From: Thermotoga profunda AZM34c06
Lineage (GTDB): Bacteria; Thermotogota; Thermotogae; Thermotogales; DSM-5069
Direction of reading: 5' to 3'
DNA length: 64,000 nucleotides
Assembly (NCBI RefSeq): GCF_000828675.1
Contig: NZ_AP014510.1
Span: forward strand, 2,065,413 to 2,129,412
The translations under genes were made by a program, and so were the position numbers. Below the pieces are notes generated by a model. That model worked only from the letters and a program-made list of their open reading frames with translations, did no database searches and had not been told where the DNA came from. Numbering within the stretch: position 1 is the first letter of the stretch; every line of letters begins with the position of its first letter. Below are positions 29,002 to 46,557 of this stretch, piece by piece.

Positions 29002-29880
29002 TCATAGTTTTGCAAGAAAATCACATAAAATATTTTCTTCCTTGTTCACATCTATACAAACAACATCAAGTTCCTCTTTTAGTTTTGTTACCACCTCTGA
29101 TATATCTATTTTCGAAAGCTGATATCCTTCAACTCGCCTTTCTGGATAACATGGATTGATTGTCACACACAGCAATTCAGGTTTTCTTTTTACAGCAATA
29201 TCCATCTTTTCTAACAATTCTTCCAATTTCTTATAATTGTCTGCGAGAATTAAATGTATTGGTGATTCCACCAACAAAGATTTATCTGAATTCGACTGCA
29301 GTTTTTCAACACTGACAAAGCCTGGTAGCGATACCCTGTTTTTGTCATCTGCCTTTGGTAATAGAAAGGCCTTGACCATTAACCTTGCTTCAGCGACAAG
29401 TTCATTTAAATTTATAGTTCTTGCAGCTCCAGTTGCTATAATTACATAATCCACATATTGAAAAGGCACCATTCTGTTTATAGCTCCATCAACCACCAAA
29501 AAATCTAATTCATAAGATTGAAGTTTTTTCAAAACACTAAAAAGATCGTCGCTCGAATTAGGACCAACAAGCACAACTGTCCCAAGTTCTTTTACTCTGT
29601 ACACGGATATACTTCCCATTGGAGTTTTAAGGGACAATCTCTCAAGTAATTCCATCTTTGCTGTCGAATGACGTGCCGCCTCTTCACTTGTTATCACCAA
29701 AGTCCCCTCATCAACGATGACCTTGGGCTTGGGTAATCCCGTAACATGATCAAGATCTTCACCATCAAAACCAATACTCGTTATCGCTAAATTTTTATTG
29801 TTCAAACACTTGAGAACGGCGTTCAATGCCGTTGTTTTACCAGTGTTTTTGGCCGTTCCAAGAATTCCAATGGTCAACAT
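29002..29880 (-). CDS. P-loop NTPase partner of B12-dependent mutase
   Basis: 292-aa soluble protein with Walker A GTAKNTGKTTALNAVL at the N-terminus and a hydrophobic Walker-B-like strand LDFLVVDGAINR. The fold class resembles MobB/CobB-type P-loop proteins rather than MeaB. Its ATG overlaps the stop of the large mutase subunit (7 nt), so it is very likely translationally coupled to it. By analogy with the accessory proteins that reload inactivated B12 enzymes, it may be a reactivation or cofactor chaperone; that is inference. It is the last gene of the island, ending 14 nt from the convergent MFS stop. Confidence 0.7.
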   Translation of the reverse strand: MLTIGILGTAKNTGKTTALNAVLKCLNNKNLAITSIGFDGEDLDHVTGLPKPKVIVDEGTLVITSEEAARHSTAKMELLERLSLKTPMGSISVYRVKELGTVVLVGPNSSDDLFSVLKKLQSYELDFLVVDGAINRMVPFQYVDYVIIATGAARTINLNELVAEARLMVKAFLLPKADDKNRVSLPGFVSVEKLQSNSDKSLLVESPIHLILADNYKKLEELLEKMDIAVKRKPELLCVTINPCYPERRVEGYQLSKIDISEVVTKLKEELDVVCIDVNKEENILCDFLAKL

Positions 29881-31652
29881 TTTTTCACCGTTCCCCTGCC
29901 TGCTCTGCCTGGGTTTGCTCCTTCTTCTTTAGTTCCAAAGAAACCTTCGTACAATGAAGCCACAAAATCACCGCGTTCGGCAACCTTTTTTAAGGTATTG
30001 TAGATACCTTCTTTTATCATTTTCGCGTATTCAAGAGCTTGTTTCGTTGGCTCTATCCTTGTCTTTCCGAAAAACCTGAATGCATCGGCGATGGCTCTTA
30101 AACTATCTATTCTGGCAGAAGTCGTTATGGCACCTCGTGCATATGCTTCGTCCGTTGAAGATACAGTTATCGCGTCGAGCTCGAGCGACTTTCCAAGGGC
30201 TGCGTGAAGGGCTGTTGTCATAGCCGATTGTACCCTATCTTCTGTATGAGTCATAAAACCAATTGGTTCCCCAGGCCATATTGGAGCATCGATGATATCT
30301 CTCAAAGCCAATATCTTACCAACGTTATAATCCACATAATTATCTTCCATGTACTTATTTATAATGGCATCGGGCGAATAACAGAACAGCGGTTTTAAGA
30401 TAGGCTTCGCACCGAGCTTTACACCAAGATATGCCACGACAACCATTCCTGCAAATGCCTTTGGTGCAGGAACCCCCCCGAGTTCTTCGTTCGTCGGCAA
30501 ATCAAAGGGCATGTTGAACATCGCGGCGAGTTTTATAGAATAAAATCCATCTACAGTCAATCTCTCTGGATCTGTCCCGCCATTGAGTGAACCATAGACC
30601 ATGTTGATCTTTGTCAGATCAGCTCCAGCTTCATGTGCGAGTAGAACTGTTTCAGGAGTATTCACACCTCTATGTGCTCTGACACACCATAATGTTGAAT
30701 CACTCAAGGCAGATTTTATAAGTTTGAGATTTTCAAGAGTTATTATTGAACCGTCCTCTTCGTGCGCCAATAATCCTTCAAGTAATCCTTCACATCTTGC
30801 ACCCCAAGATGGATCAAAATGTAAAACTCCGTCTGCGCCCCATGCTTCACTGATTTTTATATGCATTGCATCCATGAATGGACATCCTGTACCATACTGC
30901 ACAAAGACCATAGGTTTTTCAGTAGTATGACGAAGTATCTTTGGTGCATAAGAAGTTTTTTTAATCAATTCGTTGAGCTTATCAATTTCTTCTTGTGTTA
31001 TTAACCTCACATGTTTTGGAGTGATCTTTTCTCTATAATAAGATCTGACAAGATCATCACACAGCTTTATATAATCATCCCAGAGATTTTCACCCCTTAG
31101 AATTCTTTCTCTGATCTTGGCTCTTTCGACTCCTGGGCTTGTTCTTTCAGACGCCCATTGAATTATCTGATCAGTTATCATCTCAAGAAGATCGATGAAT
31201 GCACTATCTTTGATCTGATAAGTATATCCTTGTGTAATATCTTTTTTGATTTTCTTTATTCTCTCTCCTTCTGTTGATAATTCTTTACCTTCGACATAAG
31301 CAACCACTTCTTCCCAACGTGTTTTTTCTCCAAAACCAGCATCATAACCAAGCTCTGCTGCCAATTCTTTGGTTATTGCCTTTCCACCTACAACAACTTT
31401 GCACTTTTTTCTCAATCCAGCTGCATCGACAAGATCTATGAACCTTCCCAAAAGTTCCGCAGCGTTGTAACCGAGTGTTCTACTAACCATTATGTAATCT
31501 GGCACTTCTTTTTGACATATCTCGATTATTTCCTCCATCTTCATATCTGGTGGCAACAAAATAGTATGATGACCTCTTTGGGAAAATTCTCTGTTTAGCA
31601 TTTTCACAGCAACATCATGAACAGGATCTAACGGTACAAGGACTATCTTCAT
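29874..31652 (-). CDS. Adenosylcobalamin-dependent aminomutase-like protein, large subunit
   Basis: 592 aa. Residues 1-110 form a base-off/His-on B12-binding Rossmann domain: D9, ligand H12, S57 and G89-G90, with the 45- and 28-residue spacings of the family. GKAITKELAAELGYDAGFG resembles lysine 5,6-aminomutase KamE. Residues about 220-570 look like the KamD/OraE TIM barrel (GADGVLHFDPSWG, CEGLLEGL, ASLYEGFFG). In KamE and OraE the lysine holding PLP lies 11 residues after the B12 histidine; here that residue is F23, and no lysine occurs between 18 and 37. The domain order (B12 first, barrel second) is also reversed relative to OraE. The reaction is unknown, probably a radical 1,2-shift on an amino acid. 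Confidence 0.75.
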   Translation of the reverse strand: MKIVLVPLDPVHDVAVKMLNREFSQRGHHTILLPPDMKMEEIIEICQKEVPDYIMVSRTLGYNAAELLGRFIDLVDAAGLRKKCKVVVGGKAITKELAAELGYDAGFGEKTRWEEVVAYVEGKELSTEGERIKKIKKDITQGYTYQIKDSAFIDLLEMITDQIIQWASERTSPGVERAKIRERILRGENLWDDYIKLCDDLVRSYYREKITPKHVRLITQEEIDKLNELIKKTSYAPKILRHTTEKPMVFVQYGTGCPFMDAMHIKISEAWGADGVLHFDPSWGARCEGLLEGLLAHEEDGSIITLENLKLIKSALSDSTLWCVRAHRGVNTPETVLLAHEAGADLTKINMVYGSLNGGTDPERLTVDGFYSIKLAAMFNMPFDLPTNEELGGVPAPKAFAGMVVVAYLGVKLGAKPILKPLFCYSPDAIINKYMEDNYVDYNVGKILALRDIIDAPIWPGEPIGFMTHTEDRVQSAMTTALHAALGKSLELDAITVSSTDEAYARGAITTSARIDSLRAIADAFRFFGKTRIEPTKQALEYAKMIKEGIYNTLKKVAERGDFVASLYEGFFGTKEEGANPGRAGRGTVKKC

Positions 31653-31879
31653 TTTTCATCGCCCCCATCTGCCCAACCATATCTATCACCAGGTCTGTAC
31701 ACATACGCTCTCAATCTAATCCTCGCAGCAAAACCATTGTGTTCGATGAATACCACATCGACATCCTTAAAGCCGAATGACTTCATCATCTGAATACCAA
31801 GATCCCTTGCCTTTTGCTCAGATTCTGCGAGCAATGTTGTTTCAACATCCACAGCATCTATAATATGTTTCTCAATCAT
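31649..31879 (-). CDS. Small subunit of the B12-dependent mutase (dimerisation-domain-like)
   Basis: 76 aa. The stretch SEQKARDLGIQMMKSFGFKD, then VDVVFIEHNGFAARIRLRAY, resembles the dimerisation segment that precedes the B12 domain in KamE and sits mid-protein in OraE. Here it is a free-standing gene whose TGA overlaps the ATG of the large subunit (ATGA), implying equimolar assembly. Resemblance is judged by eye and is weaker than for the large subunit. Confidence 0.6.
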   Translation of the reverse strand: MIEKHIIDAVDVETTLLAESEQKARDLGIQMMKSFGFKDVDVVFIEHNGFAARIRLRAYVYRPGDRYGWADGGDEK

Positions 31880-31888
31880 TCAATCACC

Positions 31889-32725
31889 TCACTCCTTCAA
31901 TGCATCTTCTAAAATATATCCCTGCGCTACAAATTTTGCATCACCCTCTAAATAAACATTCTTCAGAAAAGATGAAACCTTTTCAAATCCAACTTTTAAC
32001 TTTCCCCCTCTTGCTTTAACCAAAACCGGTGGATAAACTTTCGAAAGAAGATGAGATATCACACAAGAAGCAATCGAGCCAGTTCCACAAGCGAATGTTT
32101 CATCCTCGACACCACGTTCATAAGTTCTTACGATTATTTCATTCTTATCTGAGATCTTCACAAAATTCACATTTGTTCCTTTGGGGAAAACATTCAAATT
32201 GTACCTGACTTTTCTCCCAAGATCCCTTAACAAGTCGTCATTCATGGATTCAACATCTTCTCTATAAATAACTGCATGTGGAACACCCACGATTGCAAAA
32301 TGATATTCAATTTCGCCAAAACCAAAATCATTTTTTTGATTCAATTTGAATACATCTACGCTCAAATCCGGAAAAATCACTCGCACATTTTCCCCAACTA
32401 TTAAAGCCTCGTGTATACCTGAAATGGTTTCAAACTTCATTTTTTCTTTTGCAACACCCAAAAGATATGCAAATTTTGCTATGCATCGAGCGCCATTACC
32501 ACACATTTCACCTTCACTACCGTCTGAATTGAAATACCTCATTTTAAAATCTACTTTATCGGAATCTTCGAGAATCATCAAACCATCTGCGCCTATAGAT
32601 TTTCTCCTGCGACAAACCAGTCTCACAAATGTGGAAATCTCCAGATTCTTTAGAACACCTTTTCTATTGTCTATAACTATGAAATCATTACCAGCTCCAT
32701 TCATTTTCACAAATTCTATCTTCAT
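31889..32725 (-). CDS. dapF: Diaminopimelate epimerase
   Basis: PLP-independent two-cysteine epimerase interconverting LL- and meso-diaminopimelate. Both catalytic cysteines are in place: MCGNGARCIAKFA near residue 75 and FACGTGSIAS near 215. The N-terminus KMNGAGNDFIVID is canonical, and the 278-aa length is normal. The surrounding genes are catabolic in character rather than a lysine-biosynthesis operon. This may be a second, specialised copy acting on the island's substrate; whether another dapF exists elsewhere cannot be seen. ATG 32725 is preferred to TTG 32728. Confidence 0.93.
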   Translation of the reverse strand: MKIEFVKMNGAGNDFIVIDNRKGVLKNLEISTFVRLVCRRRKSIGADGLMILEDSDKVDFKMRYFNSDGSEGEMCGNGARCIAKFAYLLGVAKEKMKFETISGIHEALIVGENVRVIFPDLSVDVFKLNQKNDFGFGEIEYHFAIVGVPHAVIYREDVESMNDDLLRDLGRKVRYNLNVFPKGTNVNFVKISDKNEIIVRTYERGVEDETFACGTGSIASCVISHLLSKVYPPVLVKARGGKLKVGFEKVSSFLKNVYLEGDAKFVAQGYILEDALKE

Positions 32726-32754
32726 CAAAACTCTTCAACCTCCAATATCTAAAA

Positions 32755-33663
32755 TTACAATAACCTGCAAAGTAAATCATCTTTTTCACCACAAAGAAAA
32801 TCAATAACAGGTATTTCGAGTAATGTATAACATCCAGGCTTTTGTTTCAAAGTAGCTCTTGCCGCCCCAACCATCACCTGTGCAGTCGCTGCGGGATTGT
32901 TCACCCACATGTGAAATTCCATCCTTTGATTGCACACCTTGCCCGAAGTTCCTTTACGTTCTATCTTTACACAGTGCCCCATATCCACCAATTTACTTAC
33001 GTCATCTACTTGATTTATATGAAGCTCGTCATGTGAAAAATAAGGATCTTCCGCTATCTTCTTTGCAACATCTGCAAAATCATATCCTTCTTCTAATTGA
33101 ACATAAACAAGCCTTGAATGCATTCCCATACCCTTTGGGCAAGTAATAGAAATCGCATCTTTGACACCTTCAATACGTTTCACAGCCACGGTATGTCCCA
33201 TACTCATACCAGGTCCGAAATTTGTCCAGGTAATACCTTTTGGTGCTATCATCTCAAAAACTACTCTTATGATTGAATCAGAACCTGGATCCCAGCCAGC
33301 AGATATGATCGAGACAGAACCACTCTCCTTTGCAATACTATCAAGATCCTTCTTTAGTCTCAAAGCGCCTTCTGCACCATGGATATCGTAGGCATCAACA
33401 GTGTTTATACCTCTTTTTAAATACTGAGATGCAACACTTGGTACAGCTCTACTATCAATCGCTAAGATAGCCACATCGGGCTTGGTTAAGTCTTCAACAT
33501 TATCAGTCACTGGTATTTTCCTAAATTCTTCTCTGAGTGATTTAATTCTCTCTGGAATCTCCACTATGCCAACTAATTCCATATCTTCACTTTGAGAAAC
33601 ACAGTCAAAAACAGCATGTCCAACATTACCCATGCCAACGATTACAACTTTCGCTTTGTTCAT
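32755..33663 (-). CDS. ddh: meso-Diaminopimelate D-dehydrogenase
   Basis: NADP-dependent oxidative deamination of the D-centre of meso-diaminopimelate, reversible. The Rossmann motif VIVGMGNVGHAVFD starts the protein. The Ddh-specific segments are clear: NTVDAYDIHG, SAGWDPGSDSIIRV and NFGPGMSMGHTVAVKRI align by eye with the Corynebacterium enzyme. It is 302 aa versus 320-326 there. Some thermophile homologues oxidise other D-amino acids, so the substrate could be another D- or diamino acid. It is first after the C(UUCG)G hairpin and coupled to dapF and the mutase genes. Confidence 0.9.
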   Translation of the reverse strand: MNKAKVVIVGMGNVGHAVFDCVSQSEDMELVGIVEIPERIKSLREEFRKIPVTDNVEDLTKPDVAILAIDSRAVPSVASQYLKRGINTVDAYDIHGAEGALRLKKDLDSIAKESGSVSIISAGWDPGSDSIIRVVFEMIAPKGITWTNFGPGMSMGHTVAVKRIEGVKDAISITCPKGMGMHSRLVYVQLEEGYDFADVAKKIAEDPYFSHDELHINQVDDVSKLVDMGHCVKIERKGTSGKVCNQRMEFHMWVNNPAATAQVMVGAARATLKQKPGCYTLLEIPVIDFLCGEKDDLLCRLL

Positions 33664-33738: not shown

Positions 33739-35115
33739 TTACATGAGTATCATTGCCACTATCGTTGCCCCGATAAAACCAAGAATAACAGGTATAAAAT
33801 TCTTTCTCGCAATCTCTTCTGGTTTGGTCTTACAAACGGCTGCTACTGCGATCAAAGCCCATGGAACTATGGTCCCTCCACCAGTATTGACTGCTGTGAG
33901 TTGTCCAAGGGCTGCAAGAACAGACGATTTCACATTAGCTGCCGTCCCCAAACCACCTGCAAGAGTACCCATCAGCGGTAATCCGGAGAACCCTGAGCCA
34001 TCAAGACCAGTTATCGCACCAATTATAGCCTGCATTGGTGCAACTGCAAATCTGTTTAGAGGAACTTTCGCAGCAAGCGCATTGCTCAAATCAAAAAGTA
34101 GGGGTTTACCTGCACTTCCAAATATCTGAGTAGCGGGACCACCACCCATATAGAACAAGGCAGCAATAACAAAAACTGGAGCAAAGATCTTTACACCAAA
34201 CATGAACCCTTCTCTGAGAAAGTCAACACCAAGTTCAAGACCTTCTGATTTATATTGCATCAGAGTGAATACCAGCAATAACAGCGCGGCGGTACCACCA
34301 AGTAGTGCTGTAGCATCTCCACCACGAAGTTTCAAGACAAGCATAAGCACTATATCCAATAAGAAAGCCAATGTTACTACAACAGCTTCAGTTTTCGCAA
34401 AACTACTGTGTTCCACACTCTTACTTTTTACAACGCTTTCTCCAAAGATTTCTATATCCTTTTTGGGATCGTATCCTTTGTTTGCCTTCATCGTGAAGTA
34501 GTAAGTGAGAGGAATGGCAATTACAGCCCAGACAATGATCAAAGGAACCATTGAACTCATAACCGTTCCAACAGACAATCCTGCTGCCTTAGCTGTAAGT
34601 GTTGGTGCACCTTGAATAACAAAATCTGTGGTCAAAGATATTCCATAGGCGAACATGGCTATTGCCACTCCAGCTCCTACAGGAGACAGACCAGCACTGA
34701 CTGCAACAGGCACCAACAAACTTCCTATCAAAGCAACTGCCGGTGTTGGCCATATAAAGAGAGCAAGAACTGCCGTGATGATACCAACAAACCAGAATGC
34801 CGAATTTGGTCCTTTAATAGGTCTACCAAGAGTCCTTATTAACACAGCTGCGGCTCCACTTTTTTCCATTTGCTTAGAAAGAGCAACCATCAAGGAGATG
34901 ACCACAACGATACCCATCAATTCATTTGCTGTGACTACAATGGCATTAAAGACCGATTGAACAGCTCCTAAGAAAGATCCCGTCACTGCCCAACCAACAC
35001 ACAGAGCTCCGATGATACAAATCAGTGGAGTGTCTTTTCTCAAAAACATGGTCACGACGACTGCAATCATGAACAACAAGTACAACCAATGAGCCAATCC
35101 AAGCTCTACCGCCAT
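33739..35115 (-). CDS. IT-superfamily permease (GntP/NhaC-like)
   Basis: 458-aa integral membrane protein with about 12 hydrophobic segments arranged in two halves, with conserved FIWPTPAVALIGSLLVP and late GLDGSGFSGLPLMG segments. It resembles the gluconate/citrate/NhaC-type secondary carriers. Clostridial ornithine-fermentation clusters also carry an NhaC-like permease. The likely substrate is an amino acid or organic anion of the pathway, but this is not provable here. The ATG at 35115 is 15 nt from the flavoprotein stop. Confidence 0.75.
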   Translation of the reverse strand: MAVELGLAHWLYLLFMIAVVVTMFLRKDTPLICIIGALCVGWAVTGSFLGAVQSVFNAIVVTANELMGIVVVISLMVALSKQMEKSGAAAVLIRTLGRPIKGPNSAFWFVGIITAVLALFIWPTPAVALIGSLLVPVAVSAGLSPVGAGVAIAMFAYGISLTTDFVIQGAPTLTAKAAGLSVGTVMSSMVPLIIVWAVIAIPLTYYFTMKANKGYDPKKDIEIFGESVVKSKSVEHSSFAKTEAVVVTLAFLLDIVLMLVLKLRGGDATALLGGTAALLLLVFTLMQYKSEGLELGVDFLREGFMFGVKIFAPVFVIAALFYMGGGPATQIFGSAGKPLLFDLSNALAAKVPLNRFAVAPMQAIIGAITGLDGSGFSGLPLMGTLAGGLGTAANVKSSVLAALGQLTAVNTGGGTIVPWALIAVAAVCKTKPEEIARKNFIPVILGFIGATIVAMILM

Positions 35116-35130
35116 AACCCCTGCACCCCC

Positions 35131-36423
35131 TCACACGAGTTTGGTGTTGAAAATCGACCTCAATCCAACTTTTTTCACTCTTTCCTTTATAACTGTGATA
35201 TTTGTTGTGTATAAATTTTTTTGACTCATTCTCTTGAAATAAATAGAACCAGAGAAGGTGTATTTGTATTGACGCCCTTCTTCTTTCTTCATTTCAGCTA
35301 TGACATGATTTACAAAATCTCCAACAGCAAGTTCATCTGGAAGCCTGAGGAGTTTTTCACCAAAAACTCGTCTGACTGCATTATGACCAGCCAATGTTCC
35401 AGAGACAATCGCTTCTGTGTGTCCTACCATTGCACCGGCCTTTTCACCGGCACAGAACAGATTATCCACAGGACCAATTGCTTGGAGCTCTGGTGTGCAA
35501 TTGGCAAAACCAAAATATCTCATTGAGTTACCTTTGCCACCAGCTATTGGATCTTCATACCTTGCTCTCTCCATACCAGGAACTTTTCTAAGTCTCTCAA
35601 GAGGGAAGAAAGGAGTCATCAATTTAACAGGACCTGTGTCAAGCAATACCAAATTTTCAATGAACTCTTCAAGTGCATACTGCTGGCATGCCTTCATGCT
35701 CAGAAGTTTTTCTTCCTCACGTACTTCGAGTGGCACTGGAACAAGTGCGGAACCTTTTTCTTCAAGTTCTCTAACAATCTCTGGAGCAACTGAATCCTTA
35801 CACAACTTGCAAGAGCCGCTCATTGCTCCTATACTACTGTTATCTGGTTTCTTCCCGATCCATTCTTCAACACCAACTTTGGTGGTTATGCTGATTCTTG
35901 GTCCAAAGCTGTGGCATCTGAGTATACACATCGCACAACCATTACCATATTTAGTGCAATTTGCAGGTACCGCTGAGGTCCCTGTTGCATCAACAAAGGC
36001 ATCTGCTTTAATTGGTTCAAGTCCTTCAACAACAACACAAGAAACTTTTTCACCTTCCTTTGCCACATCGATAACTCTGGCTTTTGTGAGAATTTGTACA
36101 CCGAGCTCTTTCAGATATTCCTTGACTGCAGGTTCGATTTTATAGACGTTGTACAAACTGGCATGTTTGTGCCCTGGAAACTCAACGTTTGTATGAGTTA
36201 CACAATTGTCCATAACAGAGAAAATATCTGCACCCATCTCAAGCATCTCTTCAGCCGCTGTGAATCTACCATTGTTTCTGAAGATTCCTCCAACCAGTCC
36301 TGTTCCCAAAAGCATATCTGTTCTCTCGAGCAATATTACTTCGGCACCAGCCTTGCGGGCAGATGCGGCTGCAGCACATCCACCCCAACCTCCTCCAACG
36401 ACAACTATCTTCGGAGCACGCAT
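35131..36423 (-). CDS. FAD-dependent oxidoreductase (GidA-like fold)
   Basis: 430 aa. The N-terminal FAD motif is VVVGGGWGGCAAAASARKAG, and the C-terminal FAD segment is NLFCAGEKAGAMVGHTEAIV, similar in layout to GidA/TrmFO-type flavoproteins. A cysteine-rich stretch (CAMCILRCHSFGP and later CKLCKD) could bind a metal or Fe-S centre. The substrate is unknown. It sits between the multi-subunit dehydrogenase genes and the permease, in the same tight operon. Confidence 0.8.
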   Translation of the reverse strand: MRAPKIVVVGGGWGGCAAAASARKAGAEVILLERTDMLLGTGLVGGIFRNNGRFTAAEEMLEMGADIFSVMDNCVTHTNVEFPGHKHASLYNVYKIEPAVKEYLKELGVQILTKARVIDVAKEGEKVSCVVVEGLEPIKADAFVDATGTSAVPANCTKYGNGCAMCILRCHSFGPRISITTKVGVEEWIGKKPDNSSIGAMSGSCKLCKDSVAPEIVRELEEKGSALVPVPLEVREEEKLLSMKACQQYALEEFIENLVLLDTGPVKLMTPFFPLERLRKVPGMERARYEDPIAGGKGNSMRYFGFANCTPELQAIGPVDNLFCAGEKAGAMVGHTEAIVSGTLAGHNAVRRVFGEKLLRLPDELAVGDFVNHVIAEMKKEEGRQYKYTFSGSIYFKRMSQKNLYTTNITVIKERVKKVGLRSIFNTKLV

Positions 36424-43582: not shown

Positions 43583-45037
43583 TCAAATCAATCCTGAGTA
43601 TTTCGCAACGATTTCAATCAATCTCACAAGACCCCTTACGGCAAGTCTTGCTTTTTCTTCTATTACATCACCATTTTCATCGGTTGTACCAAGCCCCAGA
43701 GACACAAATATATTCGCATCATATGCAACTGTCTGTATTATTCCCATCACATCTGTACCAGATTGCAATATATTTGTTCCCGCATACATATCCTCAATCG
43801 AGAAAATTGGGAATGGTACACCTTTTTCCCAACAATCATCATAGTTTATTTCGACGGCTCCAGAATTGTAGCTCTTGGAAATCTTGAATATATGTTTTAT
43901 TTTACTATCAAGTTTAGAGAATTCTTCAACTGTTATTTCATATAACTTGTCAATACCTGCTTTGTACTTATCTGCCTTTTGTCTCAATGCCTTCAATGCC
44001 GCTATTGCCCCAGCAAGGGATTCTTTACCTGGGTCAAAGGTCACGTAAGCCGCTTTACCATATGAAGACCACGTACCACTTCGATCACCGTGTGTCCCCA
44101 TTGCTCGTCTGATAGGAACCATTACATCTTCGCGACCAATTATCAGACCGCAAGTGGGTGCTCCTGCCGCTTTATCCATACTATAAGTCATAACCCACGC
44201 GCCAGTCTTTCTTGGATCTGTCCCTATAAATGGAACACCCCAGGCATTATCAACGATGTATGGAACATTGTAATACTGTGCAAGCTCACCAATTTTCTTC
44301 TGAAGTATGGGGGTACCATCTTTGTCTTTTTCACCGTATCCGTATCCAACTGTGTCGTATCCAAGTGATGAGAAACCAGCTAAAGTATCAGCATATCTTT
44401 CGGCGTATTCCTTGATTTTATCTGCCGTGCCCTGTGCATCAACACCGCTGAGTAAGATAACAGGGTGATACTTTATGCCGTGAACTGGATACCTTCCTCC
44501 TGCCATTGGGACGATCACTACATCGACATTTTCAAGTCTCTTTCCATAGAAACCAAGTTCCCCGGCGGTACAACCTCTGTCTGCAAAGATGTCTTTATAC
44601 TGAGGCGGAATAGGTCTCCCATAACCACCGTGGTGGTGAAGATGTCTTTCATATGGTATGATGTATCTACTTCTGTACTTGTCACCTCTTCCTGTGAATG
44701 GTGGTGAAACAAGAACATCAAAACTTAACCACAGTGCTGCTTCACATGTACTCACAAGCAATGCATCATAATCATCTCCATAGTAATCTTTGACAATATC
44801 TCTGATTTCATCTGCAAAAACTTTGTTTGGGATCACTTCTCTTGCAACCTTGCTGATGGCCTCATCTACTTCTTTCGTTATCAACCCATGACAACCAGAT
44901 ATTGCACCAGTTAGCCCAAACTTACCGCGCCATTCCTGAGGTATACCTATTTCGTCCGCCGCCTTTTTGGCTTCTTCAAAGATCTTTGGCATTGATTGCT
45001 TCAGATGCCTGTAAAGATGATACTTGTTCTTAAACAT
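43583..45037 (-). CDS. Fold-type I PLP-dependent enzyme, function unassigned
   Basis: 484 aa. VDNAWGVPF supplies the PLP-ring aspartate and TYSMDKAAGAPTCGLIIG the Schiff-base lysine, the arrangement of class V-like aminotransferases, lyases and SelA/SepSecS-type enzymes. Distinctive stretches include YERHLHHHGGYGRPIP and RRAMGTHGDRSGTWSSYGKA. I cannot place it in a named family. It overlaps no gene but sits 16 nt after the unknown 144-aa gene. A carbon-carbon or carbon-nitrogen lyase in the pathway is conceivable. Confidence 0.75.
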   Translation of the reverse strand: MFKNKYHLYRHLKQSMPKIFEEAKKAADEIGIPQEWRGKFGLTGAISGCHGLITKEVDEAISKVAREVIPNKVFADEIRDIVKDYYGDDYDALLVSTCEAALWLSFDVLVSPPFTGRGDKYRSRYIIPYERHLHHHGGYGRPIPPQYKDIFADRGCTAGELGFYGKRLENVDVVIVPMAGGRYPVHGIKYHPVILLSGVDAQGTADKIKEYAERYADTLAGFSSLGYDTVGYGYGEKDKDGTPILQKKIGELAQYYNVPYIVDNAWGVPFIGTDPRKTGAWVMTYSMDKAAGAPTCGLIIGREDVMVPIRRAMGTHGDRSGTWSSYGKAAYVTFDPGKESLAGAIAALKALRQKADKYKAGIDKLYEITVEEFSKLDSKIKHIFKISKSYNSGAVEINYDDCWEKGVPFPIFSIEDMYAGTNILQSGTDVMGIIQTVAYDANIFVSLGLGTTDENGDVIEEKARLAVRGLVRLIEIVAKYSGLI

Positions 45038-45053: not shown

Positions 45054-45488
45054 TCAGTCTCTCGTAAAATAGATCAAATCATTTAGACTCAAATTCATTT
45101 CTTCGCCAGATATAAGTTGTTCTGTGAAGATAACGATATTCTGATGATTTGGCATGTGAGTCTCATCAAAACCTGCCAATGTACCAATGCATTTTCCATT
45201 AGAGAGTTTCACCTTGTCTTTAAAAACAATCACACCAGGGTTTATGATCTCCACAAAAGCAAGATAAGCTATTTTGTTCACATTTTTTCCAGGAGCGGCA
45301 TCTTTTTCATCTGTTAGAATCAATTCGTGTATTTCACCATTTTTCAAAGCTCTCGACCACGGAGATATCAAAGATAAATTCCTGTTTTCCATCTTTCCGC
45401 GAAGTACCGCTACAATCCTTCCTACAACAGTTGTCTTTTTAGCATATGGATCGTTTTTAACCATTCCAGATGCATAAGGATCTATCAT
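45054..45488 (-). CDS. Unknown 144-aa protein, conserved context
   Basis: No signal peptide or membrane segment. It is a mixed alpha/beta sequence with segments such as VVGRIVAVLRGKMENRNLSL and IGTLAGFDETHMPNHQNIVI. I do not recognise the family. It lies 6 nt after RidA and 16 nt before the PLP enzyme, and could be its partner subunit. The ATG at 45488 has AAGGAG upstream. Confidence 0.72.
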   Translation of the reverse strand: MIDPYASGMVKNDPYAKKTTVVGRIVAVLRGKMENRNLSLISPWSRALKNGEIHELILTDEKDAAPGKNVNKIAYLAFVEIINPGVIVFKDKVKLSNGKCIGTLAGFDETHMPNHQNIVIFTEQLISGEEMNLSLNDLIYFTRD

Positions 45489-45494
45489 TGATAC

Positions 45495-45878
45495 TCACTC
45501 CTTGGCAGCTATAACTTCAATTTCAACTTGTGCACCTTTTGGTAAACCCGCAACCTGAACAAAAGATCTCGCTGGTTTGTGTTCGCCAAAATATTGGCTG
45601 TATATCTCATTGACTGCCGCAAAGTTGGATAAATCTGTCACGAAAACCGTGGCTTTCACCACATTTTTGAGATCACAACCACTTGCTTTGAGAATCGCTC
45701 TGATATTTTCAAAAACTCTTGCGGTTTGTTTTTTAATGTCGCCATTCACCAGTTCACCAGTTGCCGGATCGAGTGGAATCTGCCCAGAGACAAAAATAAA
45801 TCCATTAGCTTCAATTCCTTGAGAATATGGACCTATCGCCTTTGGCGCTTGATCTGTACTGATTGTTTTCACAGTCAT
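45495..45878 (-). CDS. ridA: RidA family enamine/imine deaminase
   Basis: 127 aa. Hydrolyses reactive enamines and imines released by PLP enzymes and flavin amino-acid oxidases, protecting PLP enzymes. The family signatures [27 protein letters not shown] and the catalytic Arg in [21 protein letters not shown] are present. ATG 45878 follows AAAGGAGG; a 36-residue in-frame extension upstream overlaps the regulator and is rejected. Its presence supports imine intermediates in the island. Confidence 0.94.
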
Positions 45879-45885
45879 TCCTCCT

Positions 45886-46557
45886 TTACACAATATTGGC
45901 GTCAGATTTATTTCTTGCCTCGCGAAGATATGCATAAATGGTGAATTTAGAGTTTCCCATTTCTCTTGCAAGCAGATCAACTGCACCTTTTAGTAAAAAG
46001 AAACCTTTTTCATCGAGTTTTTTCAGAACATTTATTTTTTCTTCTTTGGTTGCATATCTCAAAGGTTTTCCTGTCAAAGATTTGACCTCTTGAATTGCTT
46101 CGTTTAAAAGTTCTTCCACTCTGCTTGCGAATTTTTCATGATTTGCTCCGGCGAGATCTTCCAATTTTTGAAAAGACAGATGTTGATCAATCACTTGCTT
46201 GAACATAGAAACCTTAGTTGTGTCAAAGTTGATACATAAGAAACCTATGATTCTCTCATTTTCATCGCGTATAAATATAGTTGTTGAACGCAAAATCCTA
46301 CCATCTGAAGTTGTAGTCATATAATTTGGCACGATATCGACTTCTCTGAATTTCTCTGATCTGAGTATGTACAGTCCAAGATCTGTTAGAGGCGCCCCAA
46401 CCTTTCTTCCTGTAACATGACCATTCTCAATTGCTATGACGGAACGTTCGGGATCTGTTATATCATGAAGGACGATTTCATAGTCGGGACCTAACATTTG
46501 TGCAAGTCCTTTGGTAACTGGTATGAACGCCTTTAAAATTGGATGAATCTTTTTCAT
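45886..46557 (-). CDS. YheO/DauR-type transcriptional regulator (PAS-like + HTH)
   Basis: 223 aa. An N-terminal YheO PAS-like sensor domain ([26 protein letters not shown]) is followed by a C-terminal DauR-like helix-turn-helix ([21 protein letters not shown]). The named member DauR controls D-arginine catabolism in Pseudomonas. It is first in the island and reads in the same direction. Perfect ATACAA/TTGTAT palindromes overlap its promoter, so autoregulation and control of the whole island are likely. Confidence 0.87.

Follow-up and report, generated by a model that had tools for sequence, protein, structure and literature searches.

The window, meaning the whole 64,000-nucleotide stretch of the heat-loving bacterium Thermotoga profunda AZM34c06 that was analysed, corresponds to C1:2065413-2129412 of a single-contig genome of 2.19 Mb. 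It carries an operon with a gene for a 592-aa protein, here called MUT, and one for a 76-aa protein, here called S76. The relevant features are as follows.

29002..29880, minus strand: KamB-like P-loop reactivase, overlapping MUT by 7 bases (NF052386, 2.4e-59)
29874..31652, minus strand: MUT, 592 aa, with B12 domain, KamD-like accessory helices and TIM barrel (PF02310, KamE model, KamD+OraE profile)
30063..30917, minus strand: TIM barrel of MUT, about aa 246-530 (residue mapping, invariance)
30918..31286, minus strand: linker and accessory helices of MUT, aa 123-245, weakly OraS-like
31287..31652, minus strand: B12-binding domain of MUT, aa 1-122, with D9-P-V-H12 and without the PLP-lysine loop
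31649..31879, minus strand: S76, 76-aa dimerisation subunit with its own gene (fold matches, hhalign to the KamE N-terminus)
31889..32728, minus strand: DapF-like epimerase, the genome's only DapF (TIGR00652, 241 bits)
33739..35115, minus strand: transporter of 458 aa, weakly CitMHS-like, operon-conserved (PF03600, 0.11)
35131..36423, minus strand: FAD-dependent oxidoreductase, operon-conserved (PF01134/PF12831)
43583..45037, minus strand: fold-type-I PLP enzyme of 484 aa, core partner, function uncharacterised (D263 and K289 invariant)
45054..45488, minus strand: DUF6917 protein, core partner (PF21891, 1.9e-46)
45495..45986, minus strand: RidA, enamine/imine deaminase (TIGR00004, 188.8 bits)
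45886..46557, minus strand: YheO-type PAS/HTH regulator, first gene of the conserved operon (PF08348 and PF13309)

The S76 gene lies upstream of the MUT gene, overlaps it by 4 bases and is translationally coupled to it. Residues 8-111 of MUT match PF02310 (E 7.5e-11), the best curated model for this B12 domain being KamE, the beta subunit of lysine 5,6-aminomutase (4.8e-14; hhalign 99.1%, E 9.6e-19). Residues 153-592 are 22% identical to KamD by BLAST (5e-9), and hhalign of the helical segment and barrel against a KamD+OraE profile gave E 1.1e-8 over 435 columns, with a reversed control at about 0.3 (0.33). The barrel is not closer to a non-aminomutase B12 family, the similarity to the GlmE profile reaching only E 0.087 over ~100 residues, and PF06368 (the GlmE barrel) was detected in just one of 12 family members (E 0.06, far below cut-off). 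The accessory helices match OAM_alpha weakly in 9 of the 12 (best 0.0028). Outside the B12 domain, the window protein has no Pfam/NCBIfam match above cut-off, and its 11 orthologs have weak ones only; automatic annotation will therefore see only the B12 domain, with the barrel below every Pfam/NCBIfam cut-off. AlphaFold on full-length MUT, with an input of four sequences, gave a mean pLDDT of 41.5.

An AlphaFold model of S76 (pLDDT 80) has the dimerisation-domain fold of KamE and OraE, as the earlier note had supposed in assigning the dimerisation segment to a separate 76-aa gene. Foldseek against the PDB placed 5,6-LAM beta or OraE at all of ranks 1-7, and the six highest VIA-align Z scores (6.1-6.5) belong to the same enzymes. 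Superposition on 1xrs_B gave Z 6.1 and 1.5 A across 51 residues; longer alignments have an rmsd of ~9 A, and a Z below 8 would by itself be weak. In addition, hhalign matched S76 to the KamE N-terminus (E 2e-4). Together, S76 and MUT hold every domain of KamD and KamE in a different order: dimerisation domain, then B12-accessory-barrel in a second chain, versus accessory-barrel and dimerisation-B12 in KamD/KamE. D-lysine 5,6-aminomutase (1xrs, 8t0v) resembles MUT/S76 in its accessory region and in its barrel, B12 and dimerisation domains, and shares the stacking Tyr, the deoxyadenosyl-ribose Glu and a KamB-type reactivase, but MUT lacks the PLP lysine loop, has its PLP cup replaced and carries D-x-x-H. 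D-ornithine 4,5-aminomutase (OraS/OraE; 3kow) has the same domain set divided between one small and one large subunit. OraE runs barrel-dimerisation-B12 with Lys629, whereas in MUT the B12 domain precedes the accessory region and barrel and the dimerisation domain is separate, which agrees with the N-terminal rather than C-terminal B12 placement described earlier; OraS-like helices are fused into MUT, and the PLP contacts are lost.

The MUT family comprises 12 full-length members. Nine are from Pseudothermotogaceae, where orthologs are 76-93% identical to the window protein, and three from genomes of two other small phyla (G230, G367 and G180; 50-55% identity), found by profile search across 390 genomes. 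Profile search of a second wide genome sample yielded no further orthologs. A scan of genome contigs located MUT copies in Pseudothermotoga only; viral contigs contained none, and the sole match among plasmids was a KamE fragment from Fusobacterium. All 12 members, from three phyla, have a separate S76 gene and a MUT with its domains in B12-accessory-barrel order. A layout common to 12 genomes goes beyond chance, and an assembly or gene-calling error was ruled out as its source.

In Pseudothermotogaceae, the operon consists of the YheO-type regulator, RidA, DUF6917, the PLP enzyme, the FAD enzyme, the transporter, the DapF-like epimerase, S76, MUT and the KamB-like protein, with small rearrangements between genomes; in a 71%-complete relative (G056) it is present as far as the contig end. 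The window's operon also holds diaminopimelate dehydrogenase (Ddh), a second FAD enzyme with a BFD ferredoxin, a racemase, a TRAP transporter and a DAO-type oxidase. The order in G230 and G367 is DUF6917, PLP enzyme, RidA, S76, MUT, while in G180 one contig has S76, MUT and the KamB-like gene and another has DUF6917 and the PLP enzyme. The KamB-like reactivase scores 201 bits against the NF052386 cut-off of 210, making it a clear homolog just outside the equivalog, and its gene borders MUT at the Pseudothermotogaceae loci and also at locus L073 (two phyla). DUF6917 occurs in 12 of 12 MUT genomes versus 4 of 378 others sampled, one of these four being the incomplete G056, although the MUT genomes represent only about three independent lineages. 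A DapF-like gene lies beside MUT in Pseudothermotogaceae, not in other phyla, and Ddh does so, among the loci read, in the window's genus only; DapF and Ddh were accordingly rejected as a core of the MUT mechanism, since they are not beside MUT in other phyla.

Within the B12 domain, all 12 orthologs carry D9-P-V-H12 unchanged. Of the B12 features of class-I AdoCbl mutases, MUT has the PF02310 match and the invariant His12, but a D-x-x-H motif instead of the D-x-H type, the alteration that the earlier note had read from a single sequence. The PLP-lysine column (His+11) is Phe23 or Leu in all 12 proteins, as had been said of Phe23, and the statement that no lysine is near is borne out for invariant lysines, the only one in the domain being K17 (His+5). 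A His+5 Lys is also present in GlmS. The change had been described as the loss of a single lysine; the lysine is indeed absent, but this description is too narrow, as the whole lysine-bearing stretch differs. KamE and OraE carry an insert of 4-9 residues directly after the Lys column, which is missing from MUT and from generic corrinoid proteins, and the B12 domain of MUT has generic corrinoid length. The Schiff-base lysine that characterizes PLP/AdoCbl aminomutases is thus gone from MUT along with its loop.

The barrel has also changed where PLP would bind. In 5,6-LAM, the contacts to PLP are R184, Q188, S189, Y236, S238, Y263, R268 and N299 (PMC3958899), all eight invariant in seven KamD and two OraE sequences. 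In an alignment at ~23% identity, and identically under two MAFFT modes, R184 maps to D280, Q188 to G284, S189 to A285, Y236 to A326 (A/S), S238 to R328, Y263 to Y353 (kept), R268 to G358 (G/A) and N299 to E389 (E/D). Seven of the eight are therefore replaced, by residues about as invariant as the originals are in KamD/OraE, and the PLP-stacking Tyr is retained as Y353. The phosphate and ring positions (R184, S189, S238, R268, N299) read D, A, R, G/A and E/D in 12/12 MUT, and the side chains that hold the phosphate (R184, S189, R268) are all lost, R184 having become Asp. Of the columns invariant in KamD/OraE, MUT keeps 19 of 54 overall versus one of the eight PLP contacts (hypergeometric p 0.15); with this p value the loss was dropped as a statistical argument and is used here as a functional one only.

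Other parts of the active site are retained. OAM Glu338, in contact with the deoxyadenosyl ribose, is the residue that drives Co-C homolysis (PMC4413051), and Glu330 is its counterpart in glutamate mutase (PMC3958899). E502 of MUT aligns with OAM E338 and KamD E411 in all 12 members, giving MUT the barrel Glu of class-I AdoCbl mutases, and its surroundings resemble GlmE (STDEAYARGAIT versus KTPQEAIGIPT). New invariant pocket residues are R325, H327, R328 and K348, the last (12/12) in the column of KamD L258 and of OAM His182, a substrate-carboxylate ligand; the barrel residues mapped are D280, A285, R325, H327, R328, K348, Y353, R364, E389 and E502. Glutamate mutase (GlmS/GlmE) follows the PLP-free class-I AdoCbl logic that we propose for MUT, with a TxxEAxxxGxIT-like stretch bearing the ribose Glu and a B12 loop of similar length. 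It differs in having a separate S subunit, and it uses a GlmL-type reactivase, the MUT locus having a KamB-like one instead.

Judged by its sequence, MUT is not a normal aminomutase. It is built from the parts of the B12/B6 aminomutases in a new arrangement and without their PLP site, and probably catalyzes a different reaction on an amino-acid-like substrate. Because the radical machinery is kept while the PLP cup is gone, we regard it as a likely PLP-independent AdoCbl class-I mutase, in which all 5,6-LAM domains have been cut and joined differently and the pocket would accept an anionic substrate. The earlier note had left two options, PLP-independent chemistry or another PLP anchor, and had spoken of a new mutase class. 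The first option is favored by the loss of the lysine, the loop and seven of eight contacts, making a PLP-free enzyme appear more likely than a re-anchored one; K348 keeps the second in play, and "new mutase class" is a designation that we infer, as we do AdoCbl as the cofactor and the amino-acid-like type of substrate.

In the proposed mechanism, S76 and MUT would together make up an entire class-I adenosylcobalamin mutase that needs no PLP. His12, with Asp9 as its partner, would take the lower cobalt position, and Glu502 of the barrel would contact the deoxyadenosyl ribose and aid breakage of the Co-C bond. The counterpart of the KamD/OraE PLP pocket, rebuilt with the invariant D280, R325, H327, R328 and K348 (and E389), could directly bind an anionic substrate resembling an amino acid, as happens in glutamate mutase. 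As the PLP-lysine latch is gone, the B12 domain would not need to be tethered at the barrel edge, and the KamB-like reactivase would maintain the enzyme. The most likely reaction is a 1,2-shift of the glutamate-mutase type, at nearly even odds, with ammonia elimination as the second candidate at a lower probability.

The pocket could be read differently if PLP were held by another lysine. Fold-type III PLP enzymes anchor PLP through a barrel lysine and contact its ring nitrogen through an Arg. A MUT that was still a PLP enzyme would most likely use K348, which is invariant in 12/12 and aligns with OAM His182, together with a new phosphate cup such as G354-S-L-x-G-G-T; the stacking Tyr353 is kept, R328 could contact the ring nitrogen in the manner of fold-type III enzymes, and the enzyme would catalyze a 1,2-amino shift on some other diamino acid, consistent with the diamino acids on which the genus-level neighbors DapF and Ddh act. 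However, those two genes do not adjoin MUT in other phyla, and the phosphate-binding side chains R184, S189 and R268 are all lost, with Asp in place of R184, which leaves this anchor unlikely.

Alternatively, MUT might resemble a corrinoid methyltransferase, its B12 domain carrying methylcobalamin and its barrel moving a methyl group with no radical chemistry. In its first half, the B12 domain is as long as in generic corrinoid proteins and contains HDxxxK; the domain matches MtgC/MtbC models and is placed, not strongly, outside KamE+OraE in B12-domain trees. The KamD-like barrel with its deoxyadenosyl Glu, and the dimerisation domain and KamB-like reactivase of the AdoCbl aminomutase type, make this very improbable. 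Scarcely credible is an ordinary aminomutase subunit that obtains its PLP lysine from a second protein such as a KamE encoded elsewhere: the genome does have a canonical kamDE (C1:1965006-1967314), but that KamE already partners KamD, MUT comes with a B12 domain and an S76 of its own, and as the PLP cup is absent from its barrel, PLP binding would not be regained by borrowing a lysine.

How a putatively PLP-free enzyme came to share these domains is addressed by the B12-domain tree. With the insert columns removed, KamE and OraE group together and MUT falls outside (support 89/93), as would be expected if the MUT lineage had never possessed the PLP lysine; the AU test does not reject KamE+MUT (p-AU 0.13), and the tree involves long branches. 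The fused accessory helices would speak for an affinity of MUT with KamD. Tentatively, and at less than even odds in our estimation, MUT and the B12/B6 aminomutases may be sister groups, with a PLP-free MUT having diverged before the other lineage acquired the PLP lysine loop and performing a novel B12 radical reaction. If so, it would connect the mutases of the glutamate-mutase type with the PLP-dependent ones.

There are few class-I B12 mutases, and the two PLP/B12 aminomutases serve as the textbook example of a PLP-assisted radical shift. A PLP-free relative, whether it lost PLP or never had it, would reveal what the shared barrel does without PLP. It would also put to the test whether the PLP-lysine bond acts as a latch keeping the B12 domain open (PMC4256349). 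In the paper collection searched, DUF6917 is mentioned nowhere, and none of the papers found describes a MUT-type enzyme.

The best reading of the gene neighborhoods is that MUT works with the PLP enzyme, RidA and DUF6917, because these are found with MUT across phyla. RidA proteins deaminate enamines that PLP enzymes release (PMC7311433, PMC4433059), and in the simplest route, RidA would therefore act alongside an elimination that the PLP enzyme carries out. The substrate would be imported, possibly epimerised, and then processed by the B12 radical step of MUT and by PLP-enzyme elimination, with RidA completing the deamination; either order of the MUT and PLP-enzyme/RidA steps fits. MUT would thereby belong to an amino-acid breakdown route, seemingly an undescribed one with few conserved genes, of which the PLP enzyme and DUF6917 are without known function.

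The PLP enzyme family is without a curated model and weakly matches sulfhydrylases, gamma-lyases, SelA-like and DgaE-like enzymes. RidA and/or DUF6917 adjoin it wherever it was seen, across phyla (L071, L072, L101, L102, L120). On a Variovorax paradoxus megaplasmid, a 45% identical PLP enzyme adjoins RidA and an ABC importer, and MUT is absent from the stretch read. DUF6917 was also seen apart from MUT. Its neighbor in L099 and L100 is a threonine-synthase-like gene; in Thermomicrobium roseum (L121), a proline-racemase-family gene and a TPP enzyme adjoin it, and on a Streptomyces plasmid (L122) it lies within a gene annotated as dxs.

Some further observations concern the window genome and a relative. 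The 458-aa transporter has no significant Pfam/NCBIfam match (CitMHS 0.11). The genome's sole DapF, which may be a housekeeping enzyme, sits inside a catabolic-looking operon and adjoins diaminopimelate dehydrogenase (31889-33663); in a relative's locus (L044, 13151-14405), the gap between DapF and Ddh holds two adjacent ORFs (181 and 245 aa), apparently the halves of a single split transporter gene. A second, more distant KamB homolog (C1:413596-414315, 108 bits) lies away from both kamDE and the MUT locus. The canonical kamD-kamE pair has no kamB adjoining it, and the KamB-like reactivase at the MUT locus could therefore serve both enzymes.
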